The position numbers and the translations under genes are program-made. 64,000 nt of DNA from assembly GCF_021390495.1 (NCBI RefSeq), contig NZ_JAJEJP010000003.1:1178001-1242000 (forward strand), read 5' to 3'. Positions within the stretch are counted from its first letter, which is position 1, and each line of letters starts with the position of its first letter. The stretch comes from Paraburkholderia sp. ZP32-5 (GTDB taxonomy: Bacteria > Pseudomonadota > Gammaproteobacteria > Burkholderiales > Burkholderiaceae). This document shows, one piece after another, positions 32,046-45,828 of this stretch. The notes under the pieces were generated by a model. That model searched no databases. It was given only the letters and a program-made list of their open reading frames with translations, and was not told where the DNA came from.

Positions 32046-33392
32046 CTAAGCGCGCGCCGGCAACGGCGCCGGCCTGCGCCGCGTCACCAGCAACAACACC
32101 GCCGTCGCCGAAATAAGCTCGAACCCGCCTGCCACGAAAAAGATCGGCGTGAAATCCCACTGCGCCCTGACCATCGCGCCGCCGATCGCCGGCCCGATCA
32201 TGCCGCCGACCTTCGATGCGCCATGCGCCCACGCCACGCTGGTCGCGCGCATTTCGGCCGGCGATATCGTCGCGCAAAACGCATTCAACGCGCCCCAGCT
32301 GCTGTTGTACAGAAAGCCGAGCGCGGCGAAACCAACGGGCGCCCATTGCGAATACACGTCCATCGTCGCAATGATCCACACGGTCAGCGCGGCGGCCGTC
32401 AGATAGCTCGGCAATACGCGCGCCGCGCCGAAGCGGTCCATCACGAAGCCGCTGCTCGCCGTGCCGATCACGCCGGCAATCGCGCTGACCGCAAGCAGTC
32501 CGGCGATGTGCTCCATCGGCATATGACGGGTCAGGTGCAGCAGCGTCGTGGTCCACGAATTGTTGATGTAGCTGAAGATGCCGGTCGCAAGATACGCGAG
32601 CCACAGCAGCAACGTAATGCCCGCGAGGCCGTTCGCGAACAGCATCAGCGGCGACAGCCGGCGTTTGGATGGCAGCTTGTCGTGCACGACGAAGCGTTGC
32701 CCCGGCACCGCGACGAACGACGGATCGAAGCGGCGCAGCGTCTTGCCGATCTTCGGATCGGTCGGGTTGCGCATCGCGAGGAACTGCAACGACTCGGGCA
32801 GCCACAACCACAGGCAGCCCGCGAGCAGCAACGGCAGCACGCCGCCGACCCAGAACGCCGCCTGCCAGCCGAACGGCAGAATCCACGCCTGCACGCTCGC
32901 GCCGATCAGGTTGCCGCCCGCGTAGCCGCAGAACACCACCGAGACCGCCGCCGACCGATAACGGGCCGGCGCGAACTCGTTGGCCAGCGTGATCGTCGCG
33001 GGAATCACCGCGCTGAAAAAGAGCGCCGCGCTAAAGCGCATCACGTCGAGTTCGAAGACCGTGCGAACCTGCGACGTCGCGATCGTCAGCAACGCGAATA
33101 CCGGCATCGCGACCAGCAGCACGCGGCGTCGCCCGAAGCGGTCGAGCATCGGTCCGGAGATCAGCGTGCCGATAAAAAGCGCCAGTTGCTGAAGCACGAA
33201 TACCTGGGTCAGCGCGGCCGGATGAACGTTCAGTCCGTGCGACAGCGCCGGCAGAATCAGCCCGACCATGAAGATGTCGTAGCCATCCACGACCATCGTC
33301 GCCGCCAGTAACGCGACGATCAGAATATGCAGCCACCGCAGCGGCTGATTGCCGATCAACGTCCCGACGTTGAGGTTCGTCGTTTCGTTCAT
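32046..33392 (-). CDS. MFS transporter, aromatic-acid/H+ symporter type
   Basis: A 448-residue carrier with 12 predicted helices. The helix-1 motif VDGYDIFMVGLILPAL and loop GPMLDRFGRRR mark the AAHS branch, which imports aromatic or other organic acids with protons. ATG 33392 has GGAG upstream. It follows the MmgE/PrpD gene by 153 bases that contain a copy of the CTATGG palindrome (33524-33550), so it has its own regulated promoter in the LysR regulon. Substrate presumably that of the HyuAB pathway. Confidence 0.88.
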   Translation of the reverse strand: MNETTNLNVGTLIGNQPLRWLHILIVALLAATMVVDGYDIFMVGLILPALSHGLNVHPAALTQVFVLQQLALFIGTLISGPMLDRFGRRRVLLVAMPVFALLTIATSQVRTVFELDVMRFSAALFFSAVIPATITLANEFAPARYRSAAVSVVFCGYAGGNLIGASVQAWILPFGWQAAFWVGGVLPLLLAGCLWLWLPESLQFLAMRNPTDPKIGKTLRRFDPSFVAVPGQRFVVHDKLPSKRRLSPLMLFANGLAGITLLLWLAYLATGIFSYINNSWTTTLLHLTRHMPMEHIAGLLAVSAIAGVIGTASSGFVMDRFGAARVLPSYLTAAALTVWIIATMDVYSQWAPVGFAALGFLYNSSWGALNAFCATISPAEMRATSVAWAHGASKVGGMIGPAIGGAMVRAQWDFTPIFFVAGGFELISATAVLLLVTRRRPAPLPARA

Positions 33393-33523
33393 GCTGTCTT
33401 CTCCAATGTCTTTATTTATCGAGGTGTCGGTGCCCGCGATCCGGTCCGCGCGCAACGCAAGCAGCGCGCGCGGACGCGCACACGTTAGCGGAACGGCTCG
33501 GGTCGAAGCAATCAACCATTGCG

Positions 33524-33550
33524 CTATGGCTCTATAGGCCCGACGCTATG
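33524..33550. promoter_or_regulatory. LysR operator copy A (before MFS gene)
   Basis: CTATGGCTCTATAG at 33524-33537, then CTATG at 33546-33550, exactly 22 bases on. The same arrangement occurs at 41134 and 45802. It lies 132 bases upstream of the MFS start, and the second element overlaps the TAG stop codon of the MmgE gene. Confidence 0.7.
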
Positions 33551-34883
33551 ACCCATTCAGATCAGACGAAAAATATGCGCACAGTGCATCCAGTTGCGCG
33601 GGTTCTGTCGCCGATAGCCGGGCCGTTTCGATCAGGTTCATTGCCGGATGCGCGCCGAGCATGCGTGTGGCCTTGTCTGCGATCTCGCTACGGCCGAAGC
33701 GTAGGGACGGATCGCCTGGGCTGTCTTCAACGGTGATCTCGCGCGTGCCGCCGGCCGCGCGCACGCTCACGCGTGCCGGCCACTTGCCGGGGTACAGGCG
33801 GTCGAGCGATGGGTCCGCCGTTACTCGAACACGCGCGGCGAATGCGCGGAGATCGTCGCTCCATCGCAAGTCATCGCGCGTGACGTCATCGAGCGATGCG
33901 GGCTGCAAGGCCGCCAGTGCGAGCTGTCCGCGCGCGCTGACGAGACTGGCGAGCCGCCCAGCCTCCGGTGGCTCGCGATCGAGCATCGCCGCGTAGGCTG
34001 ACGGCACCTGCACGTCGACCGCTTCGACGCTTGCGGGATCGATGCCGTCAGCAAGCAGCACGCGCAGACCGTGAATCGCGGCCAACGCCTGCTTGGCCGC
34101 GCAGTGAGGCTTCACGCTGATTTGCAGCCGCGCCGGAGCATCGCTGTCATTGCGGGCCAAGCGGCTGGCATCCGCGTTCGCGCCGCCGATCTGTGCAAGC
34201 CACGCGTCGCTCAGCAACGCAACATCGCCGTCGATACCGTCGGCCGCCGCCAGCGCCGCAACGCAACCGGCACGCACCGCCTGACCGAACAGCAGCCAGC
34301 GGCCCGGACGATGCCCTGTAGCCCGGCCGATCGGCGGCGGCGTTTGCGCCAGCGCCAATGCGAGCGCATGACGCATCCGCTCAGGCGCGAGACCGAGCAG
34401 CCGGCCCGCCGTCGCGGCCGCGCCGAGCGGCGCGACCATATAGCTCGGCCAGCCGCCGCGCGCGAGCAACGACACGCCGCCGAGCGCGCACGCGACGCGA
34501 ATCGCCACCTCTTCGCCGACGTACAACGCATCCGCGAACAGCGACGGTGCCGCATTACGCGCGAACGACATGCGCAATGCCAACGCTACGGGCAACACGA
34601 TCGCGCTCGGCGTGACCGCGCTCGGGCGATGAATGTCATCGACTTCGGTCAGCCGCATCGTCGCCGCGAGGCTGGCCGCCGCCGCGAGCATGCCGCTGTC
34701 GGTACGGGCGATGAAGCGCCCGATCGCCCGGCCCTCCTTGCTCGCCGCGCCCGCCAGCAACGCGATGACCGAGTCGGCCAGTTGCAGGCCGATCGCATCG
34801 CGATGCGGCTCGCTCGATACCGACGCCGACGCGGCAAAGCTCGCGAGTTCGTCGATCGACGTGGCCACCGGCGCCGTGCTCAT
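33546..34883 (-). CDS. MmgE/PrpD family protein
   Basis: A 445-residue protein of the MmgE/PrpD family, which includes 2-methylcitrate dehydratase, cis-aconitate decarboxylase and iminodisuccinate epimerase. The all-helical N-terminal domain (GLQLADSVIALLAGAAS) and the segment SVKPHCAAKQALAAIHGL with its K-x-x-x-x-x-H context are recognisable. ATG 34883 overlaps the stop of the M24-like gene (ATGA). Last gene of the HyuAB operon. It may isomerise, hydrate or decarboxylate a carboxylate produced by the enzymes upstream; the reaction is not known. Confidence 0.85.
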   Translation of the reverse strand: MSTAPVATSIDELASFAASASVSSEPHRDAIGLQLADSVIALLAGAASKEGRAIGRFIARTDSGMLAAAASLAATMRLTEVDDIHRPSAVTPSAIVLPVALALRMSFARNAAPSLFADALYVGEEVAIRVACALGGVSLLARGGWPSYMVAPLGAAATAGRLLGLAPERMRHALALALAQTPPPIGRATGHRPGRWLLFGQAVRAGCVAALAAADGIDGDVALLSDAWLAQIGGANADASRLARNDSDAPARLQISVKPHCAAKQALAAIHGLRVLLADGIDPASVEAVDVQVPSAYAAMLDREPPEAGRLASLVSARGQLALAALQPASLDDVTRDDLRWSDDLRAFAARVRVTADPSLDRLYPGKWPARVSVRAAGGTREITVEDSPGDPSLRFGRSEIADKATRMLGAHPAMNLIETARLSATEPAQLDALCAYFSSDLNGS

Positions 34884-35986
34884 GACGCGAGCGGCGTGCT
34901 GTGGCCGCCGGCAGCAGCGAGCGCGAGCGGCACGCTGCCGCGCCACGGACCGTCCGCCAACGCGAGTTCGACCGACAGCACCGCGAGCCCGCCCGCGGAC
35001 AATGCCGCGACCGGCGCGCAGTCGTGCGCGGCCACGATCGACAGCGGATACACGCCCGTGCAGGCTTCGAGTGTCCACGCGTTCAACGTGCCGCCGCCAG
35101 GCGCGGACGCGTTAAGCGGCTGTGTCTGCGCGGCCGTTAAAGACGCAGCCGCCTGCCTCAACCATTGTTCGGCGGACTGCCACGATGCCGGCTCGCCATT
35201 CGCCGCGACACAGCGATTCACGCGCACCCAACTGCCTTTGTAGGCAACCGACAGCTCAACCGCGTAACGCTCGCCCAGCGGCGCATCGCCCTCCATACGC
35301 CGCAGCGTCGCATCGCGCGTGAAATCCGCTGCGATGCGCAGCAGCACTTCCTCGGCGCCGGCACGACGTGCCGACACTTCGATCGCCGCCAGCACCTCGG
35401 ACGCGCGGCTCGCGCCAGCCGGGATCGCGCGCAGCGCGGCCTCGCCGATCGCGGTCGCCCGCTTCGCGAGATCGAGTTCGGCGCGATCGGCCGTTTGCCG
35501 CAGTTGCGCGTACAGCGCGCTGGCATCGACGAGACTGTCGGCACCGAGCGCATCGACGAGCGGACCGCCAACGGACCACGGCAACGTATCGAAGCCGATC
35601 ACGCCGATACGCACGCTGTTGCCATCGCTTTTGCCAACATCACCAACGACACGCTCGCTCAGAAACGCCGCCGCTTTCGCGCCAAGCTTCGGCGCCGATA
35701 TCACTTCCGCCAGATGCGACACCTCGCGGATCCACGGATGCACACGCTCGGTCAACGCGGCGAGCAGCGTCGGCGCGCCTTGCGGCAACACCACCGCGAC
35801 CGCCTCGCTCCAGTACGGCACGAAGTGGGTGAGCCACTGCACCGGCGCGGGCTGCGCGAACGACGTATAGGCGACGACCGCATCCAGCCCGGCCGCCTTC
35901 ATCGCATGCTGCAACCGCTCCACGCGGGCCTCCAGTGTTGCTTGCGGGACTTCGTCCCGCGACCAGCTGATCAAACCTCGACGCAT
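34880..35986 (-). CDS. M24-fold protein without metal ligands (copy 1)
   Basis: A 368-residue creatinase/aminopeptidase-P-like protein with a creatinase-type N-terminal domain and a pita-bread C-terminal half. Where active M24 peptidases have two metal-binding aspartates, this protein has Glu (YAVEL) and Arg (WVRVNR), and I see no match to the conserved histidine. It is probably not a metallopeptidase. It overlaps MmgE/PrpD by four bases and begins 26 bases after the second M24 gene, so the two may act together, perhaps as a heteromer. ATG 35986 follows AAGGAG. Confidence 0.8.
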   Translation of the reverse strand: MRRGLISWSRDEVPQATLEARVERLQHAMKAAGLDAVVAYTSFAQPAPVQWLTHFVPYWSEAVAVVLPQGAPTLLAALTERVHPWIREVSHLAEVISAPKLGAKAAAFLSERVVGDVGKSDGNSVRIGVIGFDTLPWSVGGPLVDALGADSLVDASALYAQLRQTADRAELDLAKRATAIGEAALRAIPAGASRASEVLAAIEVSARRAGAEEVLLRIAADFTRDATLRRMEGDAPLGERYAVELSVAYKGSWVRVNRCVAANGEPASWQSAEQWLRQAAASLTAAQTQPLNASAPGGGTLNAWTLEACTGVYPLSIVAAHDCAPVAALSAGGLAVLSVELALADGPWRGSVPLALAAAGGHSTPLAS

Positions 35987-36012
35987 CTTCAACACTCCTT
36001 GGATTGAGGCGC

Positions 36013-37149
36013 TCAGGCCGGCACGCTGATCAGATCGCGCGTGGTGCGCGTCAGGACTTCGCAGCCGCTGGCCGTCACGCGCACCATGTCGCCCAGCACC
36101 ATGTAGCCGACTTCCGGGTGATAGGTGTTCGGATGCACGATCAGCGTCATATCGGGTTCGAGCACGAGTGCGACGTCTTCCAGCACGTGCACGCCGTCGA
36201 CGAACAGACCCACGCCATGCCCGCGCACCCGCGTATAGGCCGAGGTCACGTAGTCACCCAAGCCGTGGCGACGGAACACGTCGTTCTGCGCGCGCGCGAC
36301 GTCGCCATGCGTCGCGCCGGGCTTCACCACCGCGATCCCCGCGGCAAGCGCTTCCTGGTAGACCGCATAGGCGCGCAGTTGCGCGTCGGTCGGCTCGCCG
36401 ACCACCAGCGTCCGGCAGATCTGCGCGTAATAGCCATCGACGCACGGCGTCAGTTCGGTGGTCACCAGATCGCCGGCCTGGATGCGCCGCTCGCCGGGCG
36501 GATGCATGCCGCGCACTTCGCGTCCGCCGGTGCCGAGAATCACGAAGTTTTCGGGGCAACCCTGTGCGCGAAACCATCCCTCGACTTCGCCGATCAGTTC
36601 GTACTCGCTGCAGCCGACCCGCGCCGCGCGCTGGAACACCTCGTAGCCGGCGTCGGCGAGTACGGTGGCACGCGCCACCGCATCGGCTTCCGCCGCGCTC
36701 TTCGTGACCATCAAGCGGTCGAACCAGGCGGTGGCCGCCGAGATACCGTCGCCGAGCGGACCGCGAGCGAGGCGCGTGGGTGCAGCGCCTAGTGCGACCA
36801 TTGCGGCCTTCGTGGCTTTCGCCGAAGACGCGGACGCGGACGTCATCACACCGCGCCGAGCAAGCCATGCTTCGACTTGCGCCAGCGGCTCGGCGGAGCA
36901 CGACACCTGCACCTCCGGCTGCTCGGCGGCAAACCGCGCCGCCTCGGCCGCGCTATCGACGAACAGTTGCGCCGCGCCATCGCGTTCGATACAGGCGATC
37001 GCCTGCCCTTCCATCGGCGTCAGATCGAGCGCATAACGCAGATAGTCGCTGTGCCACACGTCGCCCGGCACCACCAGCACATCGAGCCCCGCATCGGCCA
37101 TCGCGCGACGCAGACGGCCGGAACGTTCCTGATGAAGTTGCGCGCTCAT
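36013..37149 (-). CDS. M24-fold protein, creatinase-like (copy 2)
   Basis: A 378-residue M24-family protein. The C-terminal pita-bread region is clear: ILGTGGREVRGMHPPGER, TTELTPCVDGYYAQICRT and RGHGVGLFVDG. The usual metal ligands are changed: the first Asp is Glu, the second is Gln, the last two Glu positions read H (LIVHPN) and a non-acidic residue; only the His of G-H-G remains. Creatinase is a known metal-free member that hydrolyses a C-N bond, so a creatinase-like amidinohydrolase role is plausible. ATG 37149 overlaps the HyuB stop (ATGA). Confidence 0.82.
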   Translation of the reverse strand: MSAQLHQERSGRLRRAMADAGLDVLVVPGDVWHSDYLRYALDLTPMEGQAIACIERDGAAQLFVDSAAEAARFAAEQPEVQVSCSAEPLAQVEAWLARRGVMTSASASSAKATKAAMVALGAAPTRLARGPLGDGISAATAWFDRLMVTKSAAEADAVARATVLADAGYEVFQRAARVGCSEYELIGEVEGWFRAQGCPENFVILGTGGREVRGMHPPGERRIQAGDLVTTELTPCVDGYYAQICRTLVVGEPTDAQLRAYAVYQEALAAGIAVVKPGATHGDVARAQNDVFRRHGLGDYVTSAYTRVRGHGVGLFVDGVHVLEDVALVLEPDMTLIVHPNTYHPEVGYMVLGDMVRVTASGCEVLTRTTRDLISVPA

Positions 37150-38891
37150 GAAGCCGTCTCCTCTTCGTCGACCTGCACGCCGTAGTCGCGCACCGCACCC
37201 GCCGCGCTGACATAACCCTTTTGCAGATCGTCCTCGACACGTTCGCGCGAACGTTCGCGTGCATCGCCGTAGCCGCCGCCACCGGCAGTCCAGAACGTGA
37301 TCGTGTCGCCTGCCGCAAGCGCGATATTGCTTTCCTTCGTCACCGAGCGCTCGGAGCCGTCGTTGCGGCGGATCGATGCCGCGTTGCTCGCGCCCGGGTT
37401 GCCGCCCTTCGCGCCCCACGGCGGTTCGATGATTCGTTCGAGGTTCACGTTGACGGTGCTCTTTTGCAGCGCCTTGTAGCGCAGCACGACGCCGAGGCCG
37501 CCGCGATGCTCGCCCGCGCCGCCGCTGTCCTCGCGCAGTTGATGGCATTCAACGAGGAACGGGTAGCGGATTTCCTGCAACTCGACCGGCGTGTTGCGCA
37601 CGTCGCCCTGGCAGATCGACACCGAAGCCGATGCGCCGTCCTCTTTCGCGCGACCGCCCCAGCCGCCGCCGAAGATATTCATCAGCACATAGCGCTCGCC
37701 GTTTTCTTCACGCTGGCCGTAGAACGAGCAGCCGCCCATGTCACCCTTGTGCGCGGCCGGCACGAAGTCGGGCAATGCTTGCGACAGCGCGCGCAGCAGC
37801 GTGTCGATCACGGTCGGCAACGCGATACTCCACAAACCGAGTGCTGCCGGCGGACGCGCATTGAGCATCGTGCCTTCCGGCGAGATCAGCGTGAGCGCGC
37901 GGAAGCAGCCCTCGTTGACCGGCGCATGCGGCATCGTGATGCACTTGAACGCGACCCGCGCGGCGGACAAACCACCCGAGTAGCCGGAGTTCAGCGGACC
38001 CGGCACCTGCTCGTTCATGTCGGAATAGTCGATGGTCAGATTCGAGCCTTCGACCTTCACCGTGACCTTCACGCGCAGCGGCACATCGAGCCGGCGCCCG
38101 TCGCTATCGAGCCGCGATTCGGCGGTATACACCCCATCGGGAATGCTCTCGACGACCGCGCGCGCCTCGGCTTCCGCCTGGTCCCACGAGGCCTCGATGC
38201 AATCGCTGACGGTCTGCACCGTATGGCGGCCATACAGTTCGGCCAGACGGCGGCCGCCGAGCTGACACGCCGCGATCTGCGCGCGCAGATCGCCGAGCGA
38301 CGCTTCGGGGAAGCGGATGTTGTCGGAGATCATCTGCCACACGCCTTCGTTGCGCTTGCCGGCGTCGTAGATCTTGATCGAGCGCATCTGGATGCCCTCG
38401 TGGAAGATCTCATAGGTCTGCACGTTACCGAAGCCGGTGCGCAAGCCTCCCACATCGGCCCAGTGCGCGCGGTTGGCCGCGAACGCAACGACCTTGCCTT
38501 CGAAGAAGCACGGCGTGTACACGACGACGTTGTTCAGATGCTGCCCGCACACGCCGGCGTGATTCATGATGATCACGTCGCCCGGTGTGAAGCCGTCGAG
38601 TCCGAAGCGATCGATGCCGTCCTTCACGGCAATGCCCAGGTCCGCGAGAAAGATCGGCAGGCCGCCTTCGTTCTGGCAGATCATCCGCCCTTCGGTATCG
38701 ATGAGGCCGCAACAGAAGTCGCGCACCTCGTAAATCATCATGTTGTACGCGGACTTGCACAGCGCGAGCGCCATTTCTTCCGCGTAGGCGATCAGCGAAT
38801 TGCCGACCACTTCGAGCGTAATCGGGTCCACCGTCGCGCGGCGCGGCACGGCCTTCGCGGCTGCCGCCAGAGAGGTTTGCTGGGTCTTCAT
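37146..38891 (-). CDS. HyuB: hydantoinase/carboxylase beta-type subunit
   Basis: A 581-residue HyuB-family protein (N-methylhydantoinase B, 5-oxoprolinase C-terminal half, acetone carboxylase alpha, caprolactamase beta). Diagnostic parts are DPITLEVVGNSLIAYAEEM, NHAGVCGQHLNNVVVYTP, GGWGGRAKEDGASA and the Gly-rich end WTAGGGGYGD. ATG 38891 overlaps the HyuA stop (ATGA). It supplies the amide-hydrolysing or transfer half of an ATP-dependent ring-opening enzyme. Substrate unknown. Confidence 0.9.
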   Translation of the reverse strand: MKTQQTSLAAAAKAVPRRATVDPITLEVVGNSLIAYAEEMALALCKSAYNMMIYEVRDFCCGLIDTEGRMICQNEGGLPIFLADLGIAVKDGIDRFGLDGFTPGDVIIMNHAGVCGQHLNNVVVYTPCFFEGKVVAFAANRAHWADVGGLRTGFGNVQTYEIFHEGIQMRSIKIYDAGKRNEGVWQMISDNIRFPEASLGDLRAQIAACQLGGRRLAELYGRHTVQTVSDCIEASWDQAEAEARAVVESIPDGVYTAESRLDSDGRRLDVPLRVKVTVKVEGSNLTIDYSDMNEQVPGPLNSGYSGGLSAARVAFKCITMPHAPVNEGCFRALTLISPEGTMLNARPPAALGLWSIALPTVIDTLLRALSQALPDFVPAAHKGDMGGCSFYGQREENGERYVLMNIFGGGWGGRAKEDGASASVSICQGDVRNTPVELQEIRYPFLVECHQLREDSGGAGEHRGGLGVVLRYKALQKSTVNVNLERIIEPPWGAKGGNPGASNAASIRRNDGSERSVTKESNIALAAGDTITFWTAGGGGYGDARERSRERVEDDLQKGYVSAAGAVRDYGVQVDEEETAS

Positions 38892-40954
38892 TGCTGGTTT
38901 CCTTCGGGCAGTTTGATGGACACGACCATGTGTCCGTGTTCGGTGATGCGCACGACGTCGCCGGGGAAAAGCACGGTGGTCGAATGCGGCTCCTCGATCA
39001 CCGCCGGACCTTCCGCCGTAAAGCCGGGCGCAAGTGCCGGGCGCCACAGAATGCGTGCCTTCAGTGGCCGCTCGGGATCGTCGAAAATCACATCGCGCAC
39101 CTGCTCTTCACGCGCTTCCTTCGCTTCGAACGGCGCGCTGATGAAGCTGTCGATCGCATCGCCGCGCGTCACCGTCGCGGTCAGCCGCAGATTGACGACC
39201 TCGATGATTTCGCCCGCCGCCGAGTGGCCGTAGCGCTGGTCGTGCAGTTCGTCGAAGCGCTCGCGCATCGCCGTGTTCGTATGCGACAGCGCATCGGGAC
39301 CGGCGAGCGGCACCGTGATGCTGTGCTCCTGGCCGCGATAGCGCAGGTCCACCGCGAAATCGAATTGCGCGTTGCTTTCGTCGAGTTCGTCTTCGGCGAG
39401 TTGGCGCTTGGCTGCCGTGGTGAGTTCATCGAAGGCCGCGAGCACCGTTTGCTGATCGAGCTTGCCGAGCACACCGACGAGCGTGCGCACCAGGTCCTGG
39501 CGCCACGGCGCGAGCAGCATGCCCATCGCCGAGAAGTTGCCCGGCAGCTTCGGGATCACCAGCGTCGGAATGTAGATTTCCTTGCACAGCGCGGCCGCGT
39601 GCACCGGACCCGCGCCACCGAACGCGATCATCGCGGTATCGCGCGGGTCCACGCCCTTGCGCACCGACACCGCGCGCACCGCGAGCGCCATCGCCGAGTC
39701 GGCAATGCGCACCACGCCCATCGCGGCTTCGTTCACCGACAGATCGAGCCCTTCACCGACGTTCTTCGCCAGCGCCGCTTTCGCGCCTTCGACATCGAGC
39801 GCCATGCCGCCGCCGAGGAAGCGCCCCGGATTCAGACGTCCGAGCACCACATTCGCATCGGTGATCGTCGGCTCGACGCCGCCGCGGCTATAGCACACCG
39901 GACCCGGCGCGGCACCCGCGCTTTGCGGCCCGACATGCAGGCCACCCGCCTTGTCGCGCCACGCGATACTGCCGCCGCCGGTGCCCACCTCGACGATCGA
40001 CACGACCGGCAACTGCATCGGCTGACCCGTTGCATAGCCACCGATGTAGTAGCCGTCCTCGATCGCCGGAATGCCTTCGGTGATCAGCGTGGCCTTCGCG
40101 GTCGTGCCGCCCATGTCGAAGCCGATCGCCTGACGAATGCCCAGCAGCTTCGCAACATGCCCGGCGCCGATCATCCCCGCGACCGGACCGGATTCCATCA
40201 TCGACACCGGTTCGACCGCCGCGTGCGCGAGCGACATGCTGCCGCCGTTCGAACGCATGATCTGGATGCCACCGCGAAAACCGCGCTCGTCCAGGTGCGA
40301 CTTCAGCGTATGCAGATAGCGGCGCACGCGCGGGCCGACATATGCGTTCAGCGCCGTCGTCGACGTGCGTTCGTACTCGCGGAATTCGCGCAGGATTTCA
40401 TGCGACAGCGTGACGAACAGGTCCGGATAGGCGTCGCGCAGAATGCGGCCCGCCGCGAGTTCGTGCTGCGGATTCGCGTAAGCGTGCAGAAAGCAGATCG
40501 CCACGGATTCGATGCCCTGCTCGACCAGTTGCGCGCCGAGTGCGCGCACTGCGTCTTCATCGAGTTGCATCAGCACGTCGCCCTTCGCGTTCAGGCGCTC
40601 GCGCACTTCGAAGCGCAGATGACGCGGGATCAACGGCTGCGGGCGCTGGAAGTGAATGTCGAACGCGTCGGGCCGGTTGCCGCGGCCGATCTCGTAGACA
40701 TCGCGAAAGCCTTCGGTCGTGATCAGCGCGGTGGCCGAGCCCTTGCGTTCGAGCACCGTGTTGATCGCCATCGTCGAGCCGTGCAGGAACTCGTCGAGTT
40801 CGGCCAGCTTCGTGCCGGCCAGCTCCAATGCGGTCGCCACGCCCTGCGTCGGATTGGACGGCGTGGTCAGCGTCTTGGCCAGCAACAGCTCGCCTTCCCG
40901 ATAGCCCACAAGGTCCGTGAATGTCCCGCCTATGTCCACACCAACTTGATTCAT
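38888..40954 (-). CDS. HyuA: hydantoinase/oxoprolinase ATP-using subunit
   Basis: A 688-residue HyuA-family protein with the ASKHA ATPase fold. Phosphate loops are visible as GVDIGGTFTD at the N-terminus and GFDMGGTTAK in the middle, plus the GTGGGS adenosine segment. It activates a cyclic amide or carboxylate with ATP for HyuB. First gene of a five-gene operon (HyuA, HyuB, two M24-like, MmgE/PrpD), with stop/start overlaps at three of the four junctions, divergent from the LysR gene at 41188. The combination with creatinase-like proteins recalls creatinine or hydantoin degradation without matching it. Confidence 0.92.
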   Translation of the reverse strand: MNQVGVDIGGTFTDLVGYREGELLLAKTLTTPSNPTQGVATALELAGTKLAELDEFLHGSTMAINTVLERKGSATALITTEGFRDVYEIGRGNRPDAFDIHFQRPQPLIPRHLRFEVRERLNAKGDVLMQLDEDAVRALGAQLVEQGIESVAICFLHAYANPQHELAAGRILRDAYPDLFVTLSHEILREFREYERTSTTALNAYVGPRVRRYLHTLKSHLDERGFRGGIQIMRSNGGSMSLAHAAVEPVSMMESGPVAGMIGAGHVAKLLGIRQAIGFDMGGTTAKATLITEGIPAIEDGYYIGGYATGQPMQLPVVSIVEVGTGGGSIAWRDKAGGLHVGPQSAGAAPGPVCYSRGGVEPTITDANVVLGRLNPGRFLGGGMALDVEGAKAALAKNVGEGLDLSVNEAAMGVVRIADSAMALAVRAVSVRKGVDPRDTAMIAFGGAGPVHAAALCKEIYIPTLVIPKLPGNFSAMGMLLAPWRQDLVRTLVGVLGKLDQQTVLAAFDELTTAAKRQLAEDELDESNAQFDFAVDLRYRGQEHSITVPLAGPDALSHTNTAMRERFDELHDQRYGHSAAGEIIEVVNLRLTATVTRGDAIDSFISAPFEAKEAREEQVRDVIFDDPERPLKARILWRPALAPGFTAEGPAVIEEPHSTTVLFPGDVVRITEHGHMVVSIKLPEGNQQ

Positions 40955-41133
40955 CGCTTATTCCACATAGTCAGATTGTGATCAGCGGCGCGATGGCTTC
41001 ACGCATCGGCACCGCCCGTACTGCAGAACAGGAATGGCCGACCGTCCAGGGTCTGGTTGTCTCCGTTTCCGTTTTGTCGTTCTGTGAGCAAACATTAAGG
41101 GAGGCCGGCGAAGACCGGCAATCCGCCATCGGG

Positions 41134-41168
41134 CTATGGATCCATAGTAAGATCGCTATGGGTTATAG
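41134..41168. promoter_or_regulatory. LysR operator copy B (HyuA/LysR divergent promoter)
   Basis: A perfect 14-base palindrome CTATGGATCCATAG at 41134-41147, followed 22 bases on by CTATGGGTTATAG (41156-41168). It sits between HyuA and the LysR gene and ends 19 bases before the LysR start, which fits LysR autorepression and activation of HyuA. Confidence 0.75.
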
Positions 41169-41187
41169 GTAGACGGGAGACAGACAG

Positions 41188-42081
41188 ATGTTGCCGGTGA
41201 CATTGCGTGGGCTGCAGGTATTCGTAGCCGTAGTTGATTCAGGCGGCTTCGGCGCAGCGGCGATAGCGCTGAACATTACGCAACCGTCCGTCAGCGTTCA
41301 CATACGCGAGCTGGAAGCCAAGATCGGCGGCCCGCTGTTCGAACGCCGCCCAGGCGTCAGCCCGCAACTCACGTCGGCAGGCCGCGCGTTCTACGCGTAC
41401 GCGCTCGAAACGCTCGAACGCACCACGGCAATCTCCGCGAATCTGAAGAAAAGCAAACGTAAGCTGCGCTTTGCCGCGCAGCGCTTCGTCGCCGATTCGG
41501 TGCTATCGAAATCGCTGGGCGAGTTTTCGCTCGAGTTTCCGCAAATCGAATTGATCGCGCTCGCGGGCACGTTCGAAGAAGTGCATTCGCTGTGCTCGCG
41601 CGGTCAAGTCGATCTGGGCTTTCTGCTCAGCAACGGCAAGGTGCCGGGTTTGCCCGCCGAGCCGTTGGGCCGCTACCGGCTCGCGTTTATCGCGGCACCG
41701 GATCATCCGCTCGCCAAAGAGACCGATATCCCGATCGATACGCTCGCGCAGTACCCGTTCATCATCGCGTATGACACGTCGTACTTCGGCCGCACGATCG
41801 CCGACATGCTGCGCGCCGCGGGTCTCGAAGAACCGGTCGTCGCGTCGCAGGCGCAGGAAATGAGCATGGTGCGCAATATGGTGATCGCCGGTATCGGCAT
41901 CTCATGTTCGCTGCGGCGTTCGGTGCAAAAGGATATTGCCGCGGGCACGATCGTCGAACTCGATGTCGACGTGCCGCCGATGCATCTGACGCTGCATTAC
42001 CTGCGCAACCCGAAATCGAACGTGCCGGAGATTGATCGGCTCGTCGAAATCGTGCGGCACGCGGAGATGGTGCACGGCTGA
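41188..42081 (+). CDS. LysR-family regulator of the Hyu/creatinase-like regulon
   Basis: A 297-residue LysR regulator with the N-terminal helix-turn-helix (LRGLQVFVAVVDSGGFGAAAIALNITQPSVSVHIRELE) and a two-lobed effector domain. It is divergent from HyuA with 233 bases between, and its start is just past the CTATGG palindromes. The same palindromes precede the MFS gene (33392) and the porin-amidohydrolase-MFS operon (45609), so it probably controls three transcripts. Converges on the second MFS gene. Confidence 0.9.
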   Translation: MLPVTLRGLQVFVAVVDSGGFGAAAIALNITQPSVSVHIRELEAKIGGPLFERRPGVSPQLTSAGRAFYAYALETLERTTAISANLKKSKRKLRFAAQRFVADSVLSKSLGEFSLEFPQIELIALAGTFEEVHSLCSRGQVDLGFLLSNGKVPGLPAEPLGRYRLAFIAAPDHPLAKETDIPIDTLAQYPFIIAYDTSYFGRTIADMLRAAGLEEPVVASQAQEMSMVRNMVIAGIGISCSLRRSVQKDIAAGTIVELDVDVPPMHLTLHYLRNPKSNVPEIDRLVEIVRHAEMVHG

Positions 42082-42152
42082 CGCTCTCGCTGTGCGTCAC
42101 ACACGGGCAAGCGGCGTGCGACGTGAAATGAAGTGAAACGAAGTGCGCGGCC

Positions 42153-43523
42153 TCACAGTCCATGCAACGATGGCGCCGCGCGCGCCGCGTTGCGTGACCT
42201 CGCGTGCATCACCCATGCGGCCGCCGCCGAGCCGAGCATCGGCAGCGCGCCGATCGCAAAGAAACTCGCGCTGCTGGCGCCCATCTTCAGCGCGAAGCCG
42301 CCGAGCGTCGGCCCCAGCACCGCGCCGAAGCGGCCCACGCCGATCGCCCAGCCAAGACCCGTCACGCGCATCGCGGTCGGATAGCAGGTTGCCACCAGCA
42401 CATCCGATGCACCGACGCCGCCTATCACGCAGAACCCCGCGACGAAGATCAGCGCCGACAGCAGCGCAACATTGGTGCCGGCAAGACCCAGGCAGACGAT
42501 CGCCGTCGATGCGATCACGAACGTGATGACCAGCACCAGAAACGGCGCGTGCCGGTCGACGAAACGTCCGAGCATCAGATTGCCGCATGCACCGCCGACC
42601 TGATAGCCGATCGTGACGCCCGCCGCGGTTTCGAGCGGCAGCCCGGAATCGTGCAGCATGACCGGCAGCCAGCTACCGAGCAGATTGAGCGCTAGCAACA
42701 CCATGAACGTGATGGTCCACAGCAGCAACGTCATGCGTGTGCGGCCTTCGGTGAATAGCTCGCGAACGATCAGACCGCTCGCCTGTTTCTCGTTGACGAC
42801 GAACGTAGCGCGGGCTTCTACGCCGATCTCAGGTGCAATACGGCGCACACAGCGCGCGAGCCGTTGCGGATGTTTGCCGGTCGCCGCCAGATAGCGCAGC
42901 GACTCCGGCAACAGCAGCGCCAGCAGCACCGCGAGCCCGAGCGGGATCACGCCGCCAATCAGGAACACCACCTGCCAGCCGTGTTCGACGATCAGACGCG
43001 CGACCGCCCAGCCGCCCAGCGCCGCGCCGATCGAGAAGCCGCAGAACATGATCATCGTCGCCGTCACACGCACGCGCGACGGCATGTACTCGCTCGTCAG
43101 CGCAAGCGCATTGGGCATGCCGCCGCCGAGCCCGAAGCCGATCAGAAACCGCAGCGCGGCCAGCTCGCCGACCGACGTGACGCGCATCGTCGCGAGCGAC
43201 AGCAGACCGAAAGCCGCGCAACTGAAGATCATCACCGGCCGCCGGCCGAACCGGTCGGCGAGCGGGCCGACGATCATCGAGCCGAGCATCAGGCCGATCT
43301 GGCCGCTGACGAAGGCCGGCGTCATCGCCGCGCGATCGATGCCCCACGCCTTGATTAGCGCGGGCGCGACATAGCCGATCGCCATCGTGTCGAAGCCGTC
43401 CACCAGCAACGCGGCCGCGCACAGCAGCGCGACGAAGATCTGGAAGCGGCCCAGCTTGCGCTCGTCGATCAGCGCTTCGAGATCGATCGGGTGGCGATCC
43501 GGCGTGACGATCGTGGCGATCAT
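42153..43523 (-). CDS. MFS transporter, aromatic-acid/H+ symporter type
   Basis: A 456-residue AAHS-type carrier with VDGFDTMAIGYVAPALI in helix 1 and GPLADRFGRRP in the first cytoplasmic loop. ATG 43523 lies eight bases after the amidohydrolase stop with GAGG upstream; the long in-frame extension before it is inside the amidohydrolase gene. Last gene of the porin-amidohydrolase-MFS operon. Second such carrier in the LysR regulon. Confidence 0.88.
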   Translation of the reverse strand: MIATIVTPDRHPIDLEALIDERKLGRFQIFVALLCAAALLVDGFDTMAIGYVAPALIKAWGIDRAAMTPAFVSGQIGLMLGSMIVGPLADRFGRRPVMIFSCAAFGLLSLATMRVTSVGELAALRFLIGFGLGGGMPNALALTSEYMPSRVRVTATMIMFCGFSIGAALGGWAVARLIVEHGWQVVFLIGGVIPLGLAVLLALLLPESLRYLAATGKHPQRLARCVRRIAPEIGVEARATFVVNEKQASGLIVRELFTEGRTRMTLLLWTITFMVLLALNLLGSWLPVMLHDSGLPLETAAGVTIGYQVGGACGNLMLGRFVDRHAPFLVLVITFVIASTAIVCLGLAGTNVALLSALIFVAGFCVIGGVGASDVLVATCYPTAMRVTGLGWAIGVGRFGAVLGPTLGGFALKMGASSASFFAIGALPMLGSAAAAWVMHARSRNAARAAPSLHGL

Positions 43524-43531
43524 GGCGATCC

Positions 43532-44530
43532 TCAGACGGCGTCGGGCAAACCGAACAGGCGCCGCGCGTTGCCGTAGAAGATGCTGTGCTGATCTTCTTT
43601 CGACACGCCGACTTCCTCGAACAGCTGCAACGCGGTGGCCGGATCCCAGCACGGATAGTCGCTGCCGTACATCACGTGATCGGCGCCGTAAAACTCGATC
43701 GCGTAACGGATGCCCATTTCGTGCGGCGACACCGTATCGGTGTACATGCGCTTGATATAGGTGCTCGGCGGCTTCGGCAATTTCGCTTTCTTCGCGTTCT
43801 TGTCCATGCGGCCGGCCTGATACGGCAACGCGCCGCCGGTGTGCGACATGATGATCTTCAGATCCGGATGGCGCTCCATGATCCCCGACAGCACCAGCCG
43901 GCACGCGGACACGCTGACGTCGATCACGCGCCCGAGGCTCAGATACAGCGCGCCGTCATAGCCGTCGAGAATCTCCGGGAAGATCGAATCGGTCGGATGC
44001 AGAAACAGCGGCACGCCGAGCTTTTCGATGTGCGCGTAGAACGGTTCAAGCCTTTCCGCATCGATGCGGTCGAGCGAGCCGACGCTGCCAGGCAGATTCA
44101 CGCCGACCAGACCGAGCTTGCCGATCGCATGATCGACGACTTCGATTGCCACCTGAGTGTCGCGCAGCGGCACCGCGGCGGTGGCCCACAGCCGGCCCGG
44201 ATAGCGGCGTTGCGCGCCGGCCATTTCCTCGTTCCACTGCATCGCCGCTTCACGCCCTTCTTCGACCGGCAGATCCGAGAAATGCAGCGAGAACGGTCCG
44301 ATCGAAGCGATCACGTCGACCTCGTAGCCGAGCCCGTCCATGTGCGCCATCTGCTTGTCGAGATCGAACCATTCCTCTCCCAGATTGAAACGCGCGACAC
44401 CGCCCTCCTGGCGCCAGTACGTATAACCATTCTTGCCGTTGCTCTCAGCACGCGGATAGCCTTCGCGCTTGCACAGCGCCTCGAAGATCGAACGCGGCCA
44501 CCAGTGGAAATGAGAGTCGAGAATACGCAT
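43532..44530 (-). CDS. Amidohydrolase-2 family metal hydrolase/decarboxylase
   Basis: A 332-residue TIM-barrel protein of the amidohydrolase-2 (ACMSD-like) family. Metal ligands: H7-x-H9 in DSHFHWW, a His in LFLHPTD, a His in MSHTGG and an Asp in YGSDYP, giving the usual set for a single zinc or manganese. Family members decarboxylate or hydrolyse aromatic or cyclic acids. ATG 44530 has GGAG upstream. It lies 65 bases after the porin gene and eight bases before the MFS gene. Confidence 0.87.
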   Translation of the reverse strand: MRILDSHFHWWPRSIFEALCKREGYPRAESNGKNGYTYWRQEGGVARFNLGEEWFDLDKQMAHMDGLGYEVDVIASIGPFSLHFSDLPVEEGREAAMQWNEEMAGAQRRYPGRLWATAAVPLRDTQVAIEVVDHAIGKLGLVGVNLPGSVGSLDRIDAERLEPFYAHIEKLGVPLFLHPTDSIFPEILDGYDGALYLSLGRVIDVSVSACRLVLSGIMERHPDLKIIMSHTGGALPYQAGRMDKNAKKAKLPKPPSTYIKRMYTDTVSPHEMGIRYAIEFYGADHVMYGSDYPCWDPATALQLFEEVGVSKEDQHSIFYGNARRLFGLPDAV

Positions 44531-44595
44531 GATCTTTACTCCGTCAGGTCGCGCCCACGATGGTCGCGACATTAAATAACCGTCCTTACTTGCTG

Positions 44596-45609
44596 TCAGA
44601 ACCGCTTGCTGATGCCGGCGCCGACACCGAACTGATTGCTCTGCCTGTTGACGATCGAGGTACCGGTAAAGCGGGTATTGTCGACTTCCGCGAACAGCAG
44701 TGTCTCTTTCGACAGTGCGTAAGTGATACCCGACATCAGCAGCGTCTTCGAGCCTTTCTTGCCGCCCTGATCATAATCGGTTCGGTAGAGTGCGTTAGTC
44801 AGGTTGAACGCGGGGGTGAACGCGTAGGTCATACCGATCCACAGATCGCGCGACAGCAGTTCCGCCGGGTGCGCGTCCTGCCAGTCGCCGATATAGCCGC
44901 CTGTCACACGCAGCGAGCCGAGGTGATAGTCGGCGCCGGCACTCACCTGATGGCGGTTCAGTCCCGGGCCGCCGAAATCGTCCCACTGCGTATAGGCCCC
45001 GCCGAAGCGCACGCCGCCGATCCGGTAAGTCGCGCCGGCCGCTACCGCGGTGCCGGTCTTGATGCTGCCGGGCACGCCGCCCGGCACATATTCGGCGCGC
45101 GCGGTCAGGCCGCCGAACTGGCCGGTGTACTGGATATCGTTGTCGAAGCGATCCGACGAGGTGCCTGCGATATCTTTCGACAGCGGCGTGATGCTCAGAT
45201 AGCAGAAATTGAACGGGTCGAAACTCGACACCGTGCGCGCGCTGACCGAGAACTGCCGGCCGATGTTCACATCGCCCCAGGGGCCGCTCAGGCCGACGGT
45301 TGCTTCACGCGTGAAGATCGAGCCAGGCGTGCCGAGCGCGCCGGTGCCGCTATCGAACGCCCCTTCCAGTTTGAAGTGCGCTTTGAGCCCACCGCCAAGA
45401 TCTTCGACGCCGGTGAAGCCGAAGCGATTCGACTGGTACAGGCCCTTACCTCCTGTAAGCACTTGTCCGTCGCCGGCGGCGTCCGCGTGCGTAAGGTAAC
45501 GCAAGCTGCCGTCAATGGAACCGTAAAGCGTGACCGACGCCTGAGCGCAGGCCACGCCAGGCGCGACGGCTAATAGCGTTAGCGTCGCGACATGGATCGA
45601 GAGGCGCAC
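44596..45609 (-). CDS. Gram-negative trimeric porin
   Basis: A 337-residue outer-membrane porin of the Burkholderia/Neisseria type. A signal peptide ends at AQA, followed by SVTLYGSIDGSL, the typical first strand; the C-terminus ends in Phe (GAGISKRF) as outer-membrane proteins do. The start is a GTG at 45609 with GGAG eight bases before it; an upstream ATG at 45654 would lengthen the leader. First gene of an operon with the amidohydrolase and MFS carrier, preceded by the CTATGG operator, so it probably admits the pathway substrate. Confidence 0.88.
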   Translation of the reverse strand: MRLSIHVATLTLLAVAPGVACAQASVTLYGSIDGSLRYLTHADAAGDGQVLTGGKGLYQSNRFGFTGVEDLGGGLKAHFKLEGAFDSGTGALGTPGSIFTREATVGLSGPWGDVNIGRQFSVSARTVSSFDPFNFCYLSITPLSKDIAGTSSDRFDNDIQYTGQFGGLTARAEYVPGGVPGSIKTGTAVAAGATYRIGGVRFGGAYTQWDDFGGPGLNRHQVSAGADYHLGSLRVTGGYIGDWQDAHPAELLSRDLWIGMTYAFTPAFNLTNALYRTDYDQGGKKGSKTLLMSGITYALSKETLLFAEVDNTRFTGTSIVNRQSNQFGVGAGISKRF

Positions 45610-45801
45610 TTCTTGTCTCCGTTCGTTATGTATCGTGTCCGTGACCACTTGCATGACGGCGCACCTCTGCGGGGGCCTCGTCATGCGCGGATTGGCGCGG
45701 CTCGCGGCGACGCCGGTTGAAGCCGTGTGTCGCGAGTCGCGTGTGTCGTTGCTGTGAAGGAATGTAGCGATCGACAGACGCTCAAACAATTGCCGACGGG
45801 G

Positions 45802-45828
45802 CTATGGGTTCATAGGACCGAGGCTATG
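45802..45828. promoter_or_regulatory. LysR operator copy C (before porin operon)
   Basis: CTATGGGTTCATAG at 45802-45815 and CTATG at 45824-45828, again 22 bases apart and in the same orientation relative to its minus-strand target as copies A and B. Confidence 0.7.

Follow-up and report, generated by a model that had tools for sequence, protein, structure and literature searches.

The three minus-strand gene sets around a LysR-type regulator gene of Paraburkholderia sp. ZP32-5 are each preceded by the same rare arrangement of half-sites, and we propose, with a probability of roughly 85%, that these sites are the operators of that LysR (41188-42081), bound as a tetramer on CATAG/CTATG half-sites and joining the gene sets into a three-unit regulon. 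The locus occupies positions 32046-45828 of the window, a 64,000-nucleotide stretch with 63.9% G+C that corresponds to C3:1178001-1242000 of a four-contig 9.09-Mb genome, and it consists of the plus-strand LysR gene together with a hydantoinase-like operon, a major facilitator superfamily (MFS) carrier gene and a porin-amidohydrolase-MFS operon (Table 1), which from strand and spacing would be transcribed as one unit each. Overall, the evidence supports well a real, conserved and selective operator set, in which control of an ordinary, well-known type would act on an uncharacterized hydantoinase/caprolactamase-like pathway.

A preliminary description of this DNA reported the palindrome CTATGG-N2-YNATAG at 33524, 41134 and 45802, each time with a CTATG 22 bases later and upstream of a minus-strand unit, and all of this is exact. 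Within the window the 14-bp palindrome is found at these three places (mean of 0.00 in 100 shuffles), the copy at 41134 matching on both strands, and the composite pattern, which adds the second CTATG 22 bases after the first base, is exact at each of them. Allowing up to three mismatches adds one window match, copy C read in reverse, and 0 of 100 shuffled sequences reached four matches (largest count, 1). Across the whole genome the composite, with its 16 specified bases, is exact at 3 places, off by one base at 1 and off by three bases at 15, with nothing at two mismatches. The three-mismatch class again includes the reverse reading of copy C, and since the reversed-pattern control gives 31 + 33 = 64 matches at up to three mismatches, this class is background. 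Base composition predicts about 0.002 exact copies in 9.09 Mb. The palindrome CTATG-N4-CATAG alone is perfect at one additional genome place, C1:2902546, outside the composite matches. A matrix built from eight sites finds no additional site in the window, the next score (19.7) being copy B on the other strand.

The one-mismatch copy (C3:565316-565342; L021:10316-10342) precedes by 29 bp the start of a paralogous LysR gene (C3:564399-565283; L021:9393-10286) whose product is 59% identical to the window LysR, and it is the single operator of a cluster with the order hyuA-hyuB-M24-creatinase_N-prpD (a flavin adenine dinucleotide [FAD] aromatic-ring hydroxylase follows the cluster at L021:18040-19785). 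The other own-genome LysR matches listed at an E value of ≤1e-10, with 150 of 237 candidates scored, are 24 to 32% identical. The window LysR and this paralog may thus use one operator code and cross-regulate both pathways: the paralog operator differs at 1 of the 16 specified bases and the helix of the helix-turn-helix (HTH) differs little (QPSVSVH in the window LysR, QPAVSVH in the paralog). The divergent spacers and the one-base change in the distal half-site could, however, separate the two regulators, and we regard such cross-talk as possible, with the odds somewhat against it.

Read towards their targets, the sites follow the scheme CATAG-N8-CTAT-N5-CATAG-N12-TTG(-35)-N17-(-10). In an alignment of 10 sites, of which two from genome G018 were chosen by the pattern itself and the orthologous ones are not independent, the first CATAG is present in 8 (the other two read CATAA), whereas CTAT and the second CATAG are present in all 10. 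The TTG follows exactly 12 bp on in seven of the eight sites that were found without a TTG condition, and at 11 bp in the paralog site. Mean information per column is 1.03 bits in the operator, 0.64 in the next 12 bp, 0.97 in the -35 hexamer and 0.50 in the -10 hexamer, as against 0.31 in the upstream 60 bp. From this alignment we infer promoters A, B and C (Table 1), which would place the half-sites at -74 to -70, -61 to -57 and -52 to -48, the center of the outer dyad CATAG-N8-CTATG at -65.5 and that of the inner palindrome CTATG-N4-CATAG at -54.5.

The preliminary description had read this layout as a full recognition site with a partial activation site. The activation site of LysR regulators is promoter-proximal, and the lone CTATG is promoter-distal (about -74 to -70 by the predicted -35 and -10 boxes), so it cannot be the activation site and appears instead to be the far half of a primary dyad CATAG-N8-CTATG. 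We hypothesize that one LysR dimer occupies this outer dyad, centered near -65.5, as its primary site, and that the contact of a second dimer would start at the CATAG 22 bp on (-52 to -48) and reach, across weakly conserved DNA, as far as the -35 box 12 bp further on. Together with an inducer, probably a pathway intermediate, LysR would then activate hyuA-hyuB-M24-creatinase_N-prpD, MFS carrier A and porin-amidohydrolase-MFS C, while operator B, 27 bp before lysR, probably provides autoregulation. According to PMC4834489, LysR primary sites lie near -65 and secondary contacts pass the -35 box through less conserved DNA. If the preliminary parse were right, the 14-bp CTATG-N4-CATAG, centered near -54.5, would be the primary site and the distal CATAG an accessory half-site. 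Copy B does contain this dyad in perfect form (CTATGGATCCATAG), and six of the eight sites identified independently of the TTG have it complete, the shared half being CTATA in the two A sites; its center, however, would lie 11 bp nearer the promoter than the usual -65 (PMC4834489), in each of the three units the partial site is the one far from the promoter, and ATAG-N8-CTAT is the only part that survives in Neorhizobium (see below). We therefore consider the inner palindrome an unlikely primary site.

The motif is conserved before orthologous operons, the result on which the preliminary description had made its proposal depend. Burkholderia sp. Ax-1724 (L022; matched by G103:C19) has the same gene order, a LysR 93% identical to that of the window and three operators in corresponding places. 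Between the two, half-site bases agree at 14/14 positions in every pair, and spacer bases at 8/13, 12/13 and 10/13 (A, B and C). Half-sites stand out clearly from the flanks at C but only modestly at A and B, so the agreement among A, B, C, the G003 site and the paralog site is the stronger evidence. Genome G003, whose LysR is 66% identical, has a single operator (L027:205-231) preceding hyuA, hyuB, M24, creatinase_N, prpD, MFS A and porin on one strand; no operator was seen between prpD and MFS A, and L026/L027 hold no further match at up to three mismatches. It lacks the amidohydrolase, and its porin has no match to the window porin at E ≤ 1e-15. The window lineage thus uses three operators and three units for a job similar to the one that G003 does with a single operator and a single long unit. 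Next to the operon of G003, the opposite strand (L027:12305-17290) encodes an Asp/Glu/hydantoin racemase, two polysaccharide deacetylase-type proteins and a second MmgE/PrpD protein, neighbors that hint at hydantoin or ureide chemistry.

We searched 144 congeneric genomes with the 17-base pattern CATAG-N8-CTAT-N5-CATAG-N12-TTG, allowing one mismatch, and obtained 9 matches in 4 genomes, against 0 for the reversed control. The pattern was built knowing eight earlier sites, so only the G018 pair of matches is blind, and the seven in the own genome, G103 and G003 are not. With two mismatches to the pattern, the paralog site falls outside the nine. A sample of 398 family genomes, which includes 60 congeneric ones, gave matches in the own genome alone. 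LysR orthologs are present in 3 of the 144 genus genomes (E ≤ 1e-70) and 1 of the 398 family genomes (E ≤ 1e-60), and at E ≤ 1e-45 the 399 order genomes yield LysR in the own genome only; a contig search for LysR gave a single close relative, plus a partial match of 35% in Luteibacter. At E ≤ 1e-60 the LysR relatives number 101 proteins, five of which entered the LysR alignment. LysR relatives from Ramlibacter are 61% and 55% identical, and a Polaromonas relative of the Creatinase_N protein is 52% identical, these being known at the protein level. All three genus genomes with a LysR ortholog have the operator (chance of such nesting, 8e-6, ignoring descent). The earlier proposal of three units under one adjacent LysR is thus supported: in the genomes searched the operator accompanies this LysR clade, and the 59% paralog has a copy of its own.

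A number of observations weigh against the proposed regulon. The operators were inherited with the locus by descent, so their co-occurrence with LysR is not independent, and part of the flanking DNA is shared by the window and Ax-1724 as well: of 30 positions on each side, operators A, B and C have 19, 21 and 10 identical bases upstream and 23, 23 and 21 downstream, respectively. When the matrix is made from the paralog and G003 sites alone, B and C take the top two ranks in the window and A only the fourth. The HTH residues QP-VS, common to 10/10 LysRs of the clade, also occur in three unrelated LysRs, leaving only the following H as distinctive. A strict T-N11-A is absent, the conserved positions of the outer dyad reading T-N12-A and those of the inner one T-N10-A, and no fourth half-site is recognizable by eye at the place expected from OxyR. 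In three strains of Neorhizobium galegae, with a LysR 39% identical, ATAG-N8-CTAT alone is retained, 11 bp before the LysR start codon, and its spacer occurs in two versions. In L030 nothing matches the operator pattern, and the matrix gives the retained place only 6.7 and not the first rank; in L031 the place is not among the best six by matrix. Two of the three strains have a hyuA-hyuB-M24-creatinase_N-prpD-like order and an amidohydrolase at 62% identity, the third being seen at the LysR region only. The Neorhizobium remnant mildly favors the outer dyad as the core.

G018 contributes the remaining difficulty, with two operator-like matches back to back, their starts 77 bp apart (Table 1), and no LysR ortholog (best match, 29%). 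One site precedes an amidohydrolase (85%) split over two frames, which may be an assembly error, followed by MFS C (68%); the other precedes enoyl-CoA hydratase and CoA-transferase genes and lacks the TTG. These sites favor the alternative that a different regulator of the same pathway reads the operators and that the neighboring LysR is incidental. G018, however, appears to be a remnant, perhaps a decayed or orphaned copy of the locus: besides the frame-split amidohydrolase, a C-terminal fragment of MFS A (62%) about 12 kb off is the sole MFS A piece in the stretches examined. Moreover, the LysR genes of the paralog cluster and of G003 (59 to 66%) both have a site at the divergent promoter in front of them, and the letters of the half-sites, like their predicted placement at -65, are LysR-like, all of which makes an incidental LysR very unlikely. 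That the repeats are recent duplicates or chance is barely credible, as their likeness is concentrated in the half-sites and the TTG, with 0.31 bits per column in the upstream 60 bp, and chance is ruled out by the whole-genome and 144-genome counts against the 0.002 exact copies expected.

The regulator itself has 297 amino acids and scores 67.7 bits to HTH_1 (Pfam cut-off, 26.6) and 119.9 to LysR_substrate (cut-off, 28); among the NCBIfam LysR subfamilies (best 25 of 51) none reaches its cut-off, the top one being YeiE with 124 of 480. Its gene is divergent from the target operon with the site between them at window operator B, L022, L021 and L026/L027. The CTATG of copy B ends at 41160 and is followed by 27 bases up to the LysR start codon at 41188; the 19 bases given in the preliminary description apply only if the copy is extended to the ATAG at 41165-41168. 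ThnR-type catabolic LysR activators (PMC4834489) resemble this system in the divergent regulator gene, the dyad (here predicted) near -65, the (here proposed) contact to the -35 box and the several target units, whereas here T-N11-A gives way to CATAG/CTATG with N8 and then N4, and there is a third strong half-site. OxyR, whose inverted repeats ATAG-n7-CTAT are located by PMC5002191 at positions -66, -44 and -35, with 22 bp from the first to the second, shares the half-site letters, their alternating orientation, the 22-bp period and the distance from the (here predicted) start. The sites described here differ in gaps of 8 and 6 rather than 7 between ATAG/CTAT cores, in having three half-sites and not four, and in their catabolic targets, and OxyR is not the nearest solved relative of the LysR (59.8 bits, against a best of 74.4). 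The 22-bp period fits the two-turn spacing of successive dimers, by analogy with which the third CATAG would open the site of the second dimer.

We tentatively suggest, at less than even odds, that this is a LysR clade for which we found no description, with a three-half-site code CATAG-N8-CTATG-N4-CATAG, a 22-bp direct period, no T-N11-A and a fixed 12 bp to the -35 box, whose regulons grow by module copying (one operator in G003, three in the window lineage) and which governs a pathway pairing HyuAB with an M24 protein lacking metal ligands and a Creatinase_N-only partner. Sequence alone suffices to propose, within a 9-Mb genome, a regulator together with its DNA code and a brief list of predicted targets (the three units and that of the paralog). 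This offers a route to the inducer and substrate of a hydantoinase-type pathway and may exemplify the growth of a single operon into a three-unit regulon.

Table 1. Features of the LysR locus and of operator sites in related genomes (unlabeled coordinates refer to the window)
Feature	Coordinates	Strand	Remarks
Operator A	33524..33550	-	CATAGCGTCGGGCCTATAGAGCCATAG towards target; upstream of MFS A; distal half-site overlaps stop codon of PrpD-like gene
Operator B	41134..41160	-	CATAGCGATCTTACTATGGATCCATAG; between divergent HyuA operon and LysR
Operator C	45802..45828	-	CATAGCCTCGGTCCTATGAACCCATAG; upstream of porin-amidohydrolase-MFS
Promoter A (predicted)	33483..33511	-	TTGCTT 33506-33511, 17 bp, CTAACG 33483-33488
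Promoter B (predicted)	41093..41121	-	TTGCCG 41116-41121, 17 bp, TTAATG 41093-41098
Promoter C (predicted)	45761..45789	-	TTGTTT 45784-45789, 17 bp, TACATT 45761-45766
Unit hyuA-hyuB-M24-creatinase_N-prpD	40954 down to 33546	-	
Unit MFS A	33392 to 32046	-	
Unit porin-amidohydrolase-MFS C	45609 to 42153	-	
lysR	41188-42081	+	
HyuA-like (hydantoinase/oxoprolinase A)	38888..40954	-	NCBIfam best match caprolactamase alpha, 502 of 1000 bits required
HyuB-like (hydantoinase B) open reading frame	37146..39047	-	Caprolactamase beta, 308 of 1000 bits required
M24-fold protein	36013..37149	-	Start placed at ATG 37149
Creatinase_N-only protein	34880..35986	-	368 amino acids, following P0102
MmgE/PrpD-family open reading frame	33546..35078	-	Real start probably further in, near end of preceding gene
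MFS carrier A	32046..33392	-	249.6 bits, cut-off 418.55, aromatic acid/H+ symport subfamily (TIGR00895)
Gram-negative porin (Porin_4)	44596..45609	-	Start placed at GTG 45609, after GGAGACAAG
Amidohydro_2 open reading frame	43532..44572	-	Nearest solved relatives are decarboxylases; true start may be near residue 13, where relatives begin matching
MFS carrier C open reading frame	42153..43904	-	338.5 bits, cut-off 418.55, TIGR00895; carrier proper probably begins near 43514
Ax-1724 operator A	L022:2402-2428		
Ax-1724 operator B	L022:9947-9973		
Ax-1724 operator C	L022:14772-14798		
G018 operator-like site one	L041:15653-15679		Back to back with site two
G018 operator-like site two	L042:115-141		Back to back with site one

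The preliminary description had read a complete uptake and degradation system from this locus. The genes do appear to fit uptake and amide hydrolysis, but the claim of completeness was overstated, given an M24-type protein without the usual metal ligands. HyuA is nearest to caprolactamase (alpha) and to N-methylhydantoinase (474 bits to 7hk5), yet neither it nor the HyuB-like protein reaches the cut-off of the CapAB models (NF050156 and NF050157), both scoring far under the 1000 bits required; unlike the caprolactamase and N-methylhydantoinase (HyuA-HyuB) systems, the locus also has M24, Creatinase_N and PrpD-like proteins alongside. The MFS carriers are nearest to aromatic-acid symporters, although neither reaches the TIGR00895 cut-off, and the solved relatives nearest to the amidohydrolase are of the gamma-resorcylate and ACMSD decarboxylase types. 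The metal ligands of M24 metallopeptidases are D, D, H, E and E; at the five prolidase metal positions (compared with 3q6d) the M24 protein has E, Q, H, H and G in 5/5 aligned sequences, and a role as a metallopeptidase is therefore unlikely. Creatinase, which is metal-free, is among the solved relatives of this protein, and the Creatinase_N-only protein is perhaps a second pita-bread-like partner. Taken together, the gene content suggests a cyclic amide or hydantoin-like acid as the substrate. Among the papers listed by the literature searches, nothing on this cluster came up beyond one parallel: PMC6733357 describes hydantoinase A/B genes of pTiEU6 with a LysR gene nearby and proposes opening of an opine lactam. 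The likeness lies in the proposed lactam-ring opening and in the LysR and transport genes nearby, and the function in pTiEU6 is likewise only proposed.

Two leader regions have features of their own. The predicted hyuA leader (40955-41086, about 130 nucleotides) has blocks in common with Ax-1724, including GGAGACAAC, which has no obvious start codon downstream and may act as a leader element. The porin leader of Ax-1724, which separates promoter C from the porin start, has 11 copies of a 12-bp unit with 99% matches (L022:14599-14730). This repeat may tune expression; the corresponding part of the window has roughly one copy of it.

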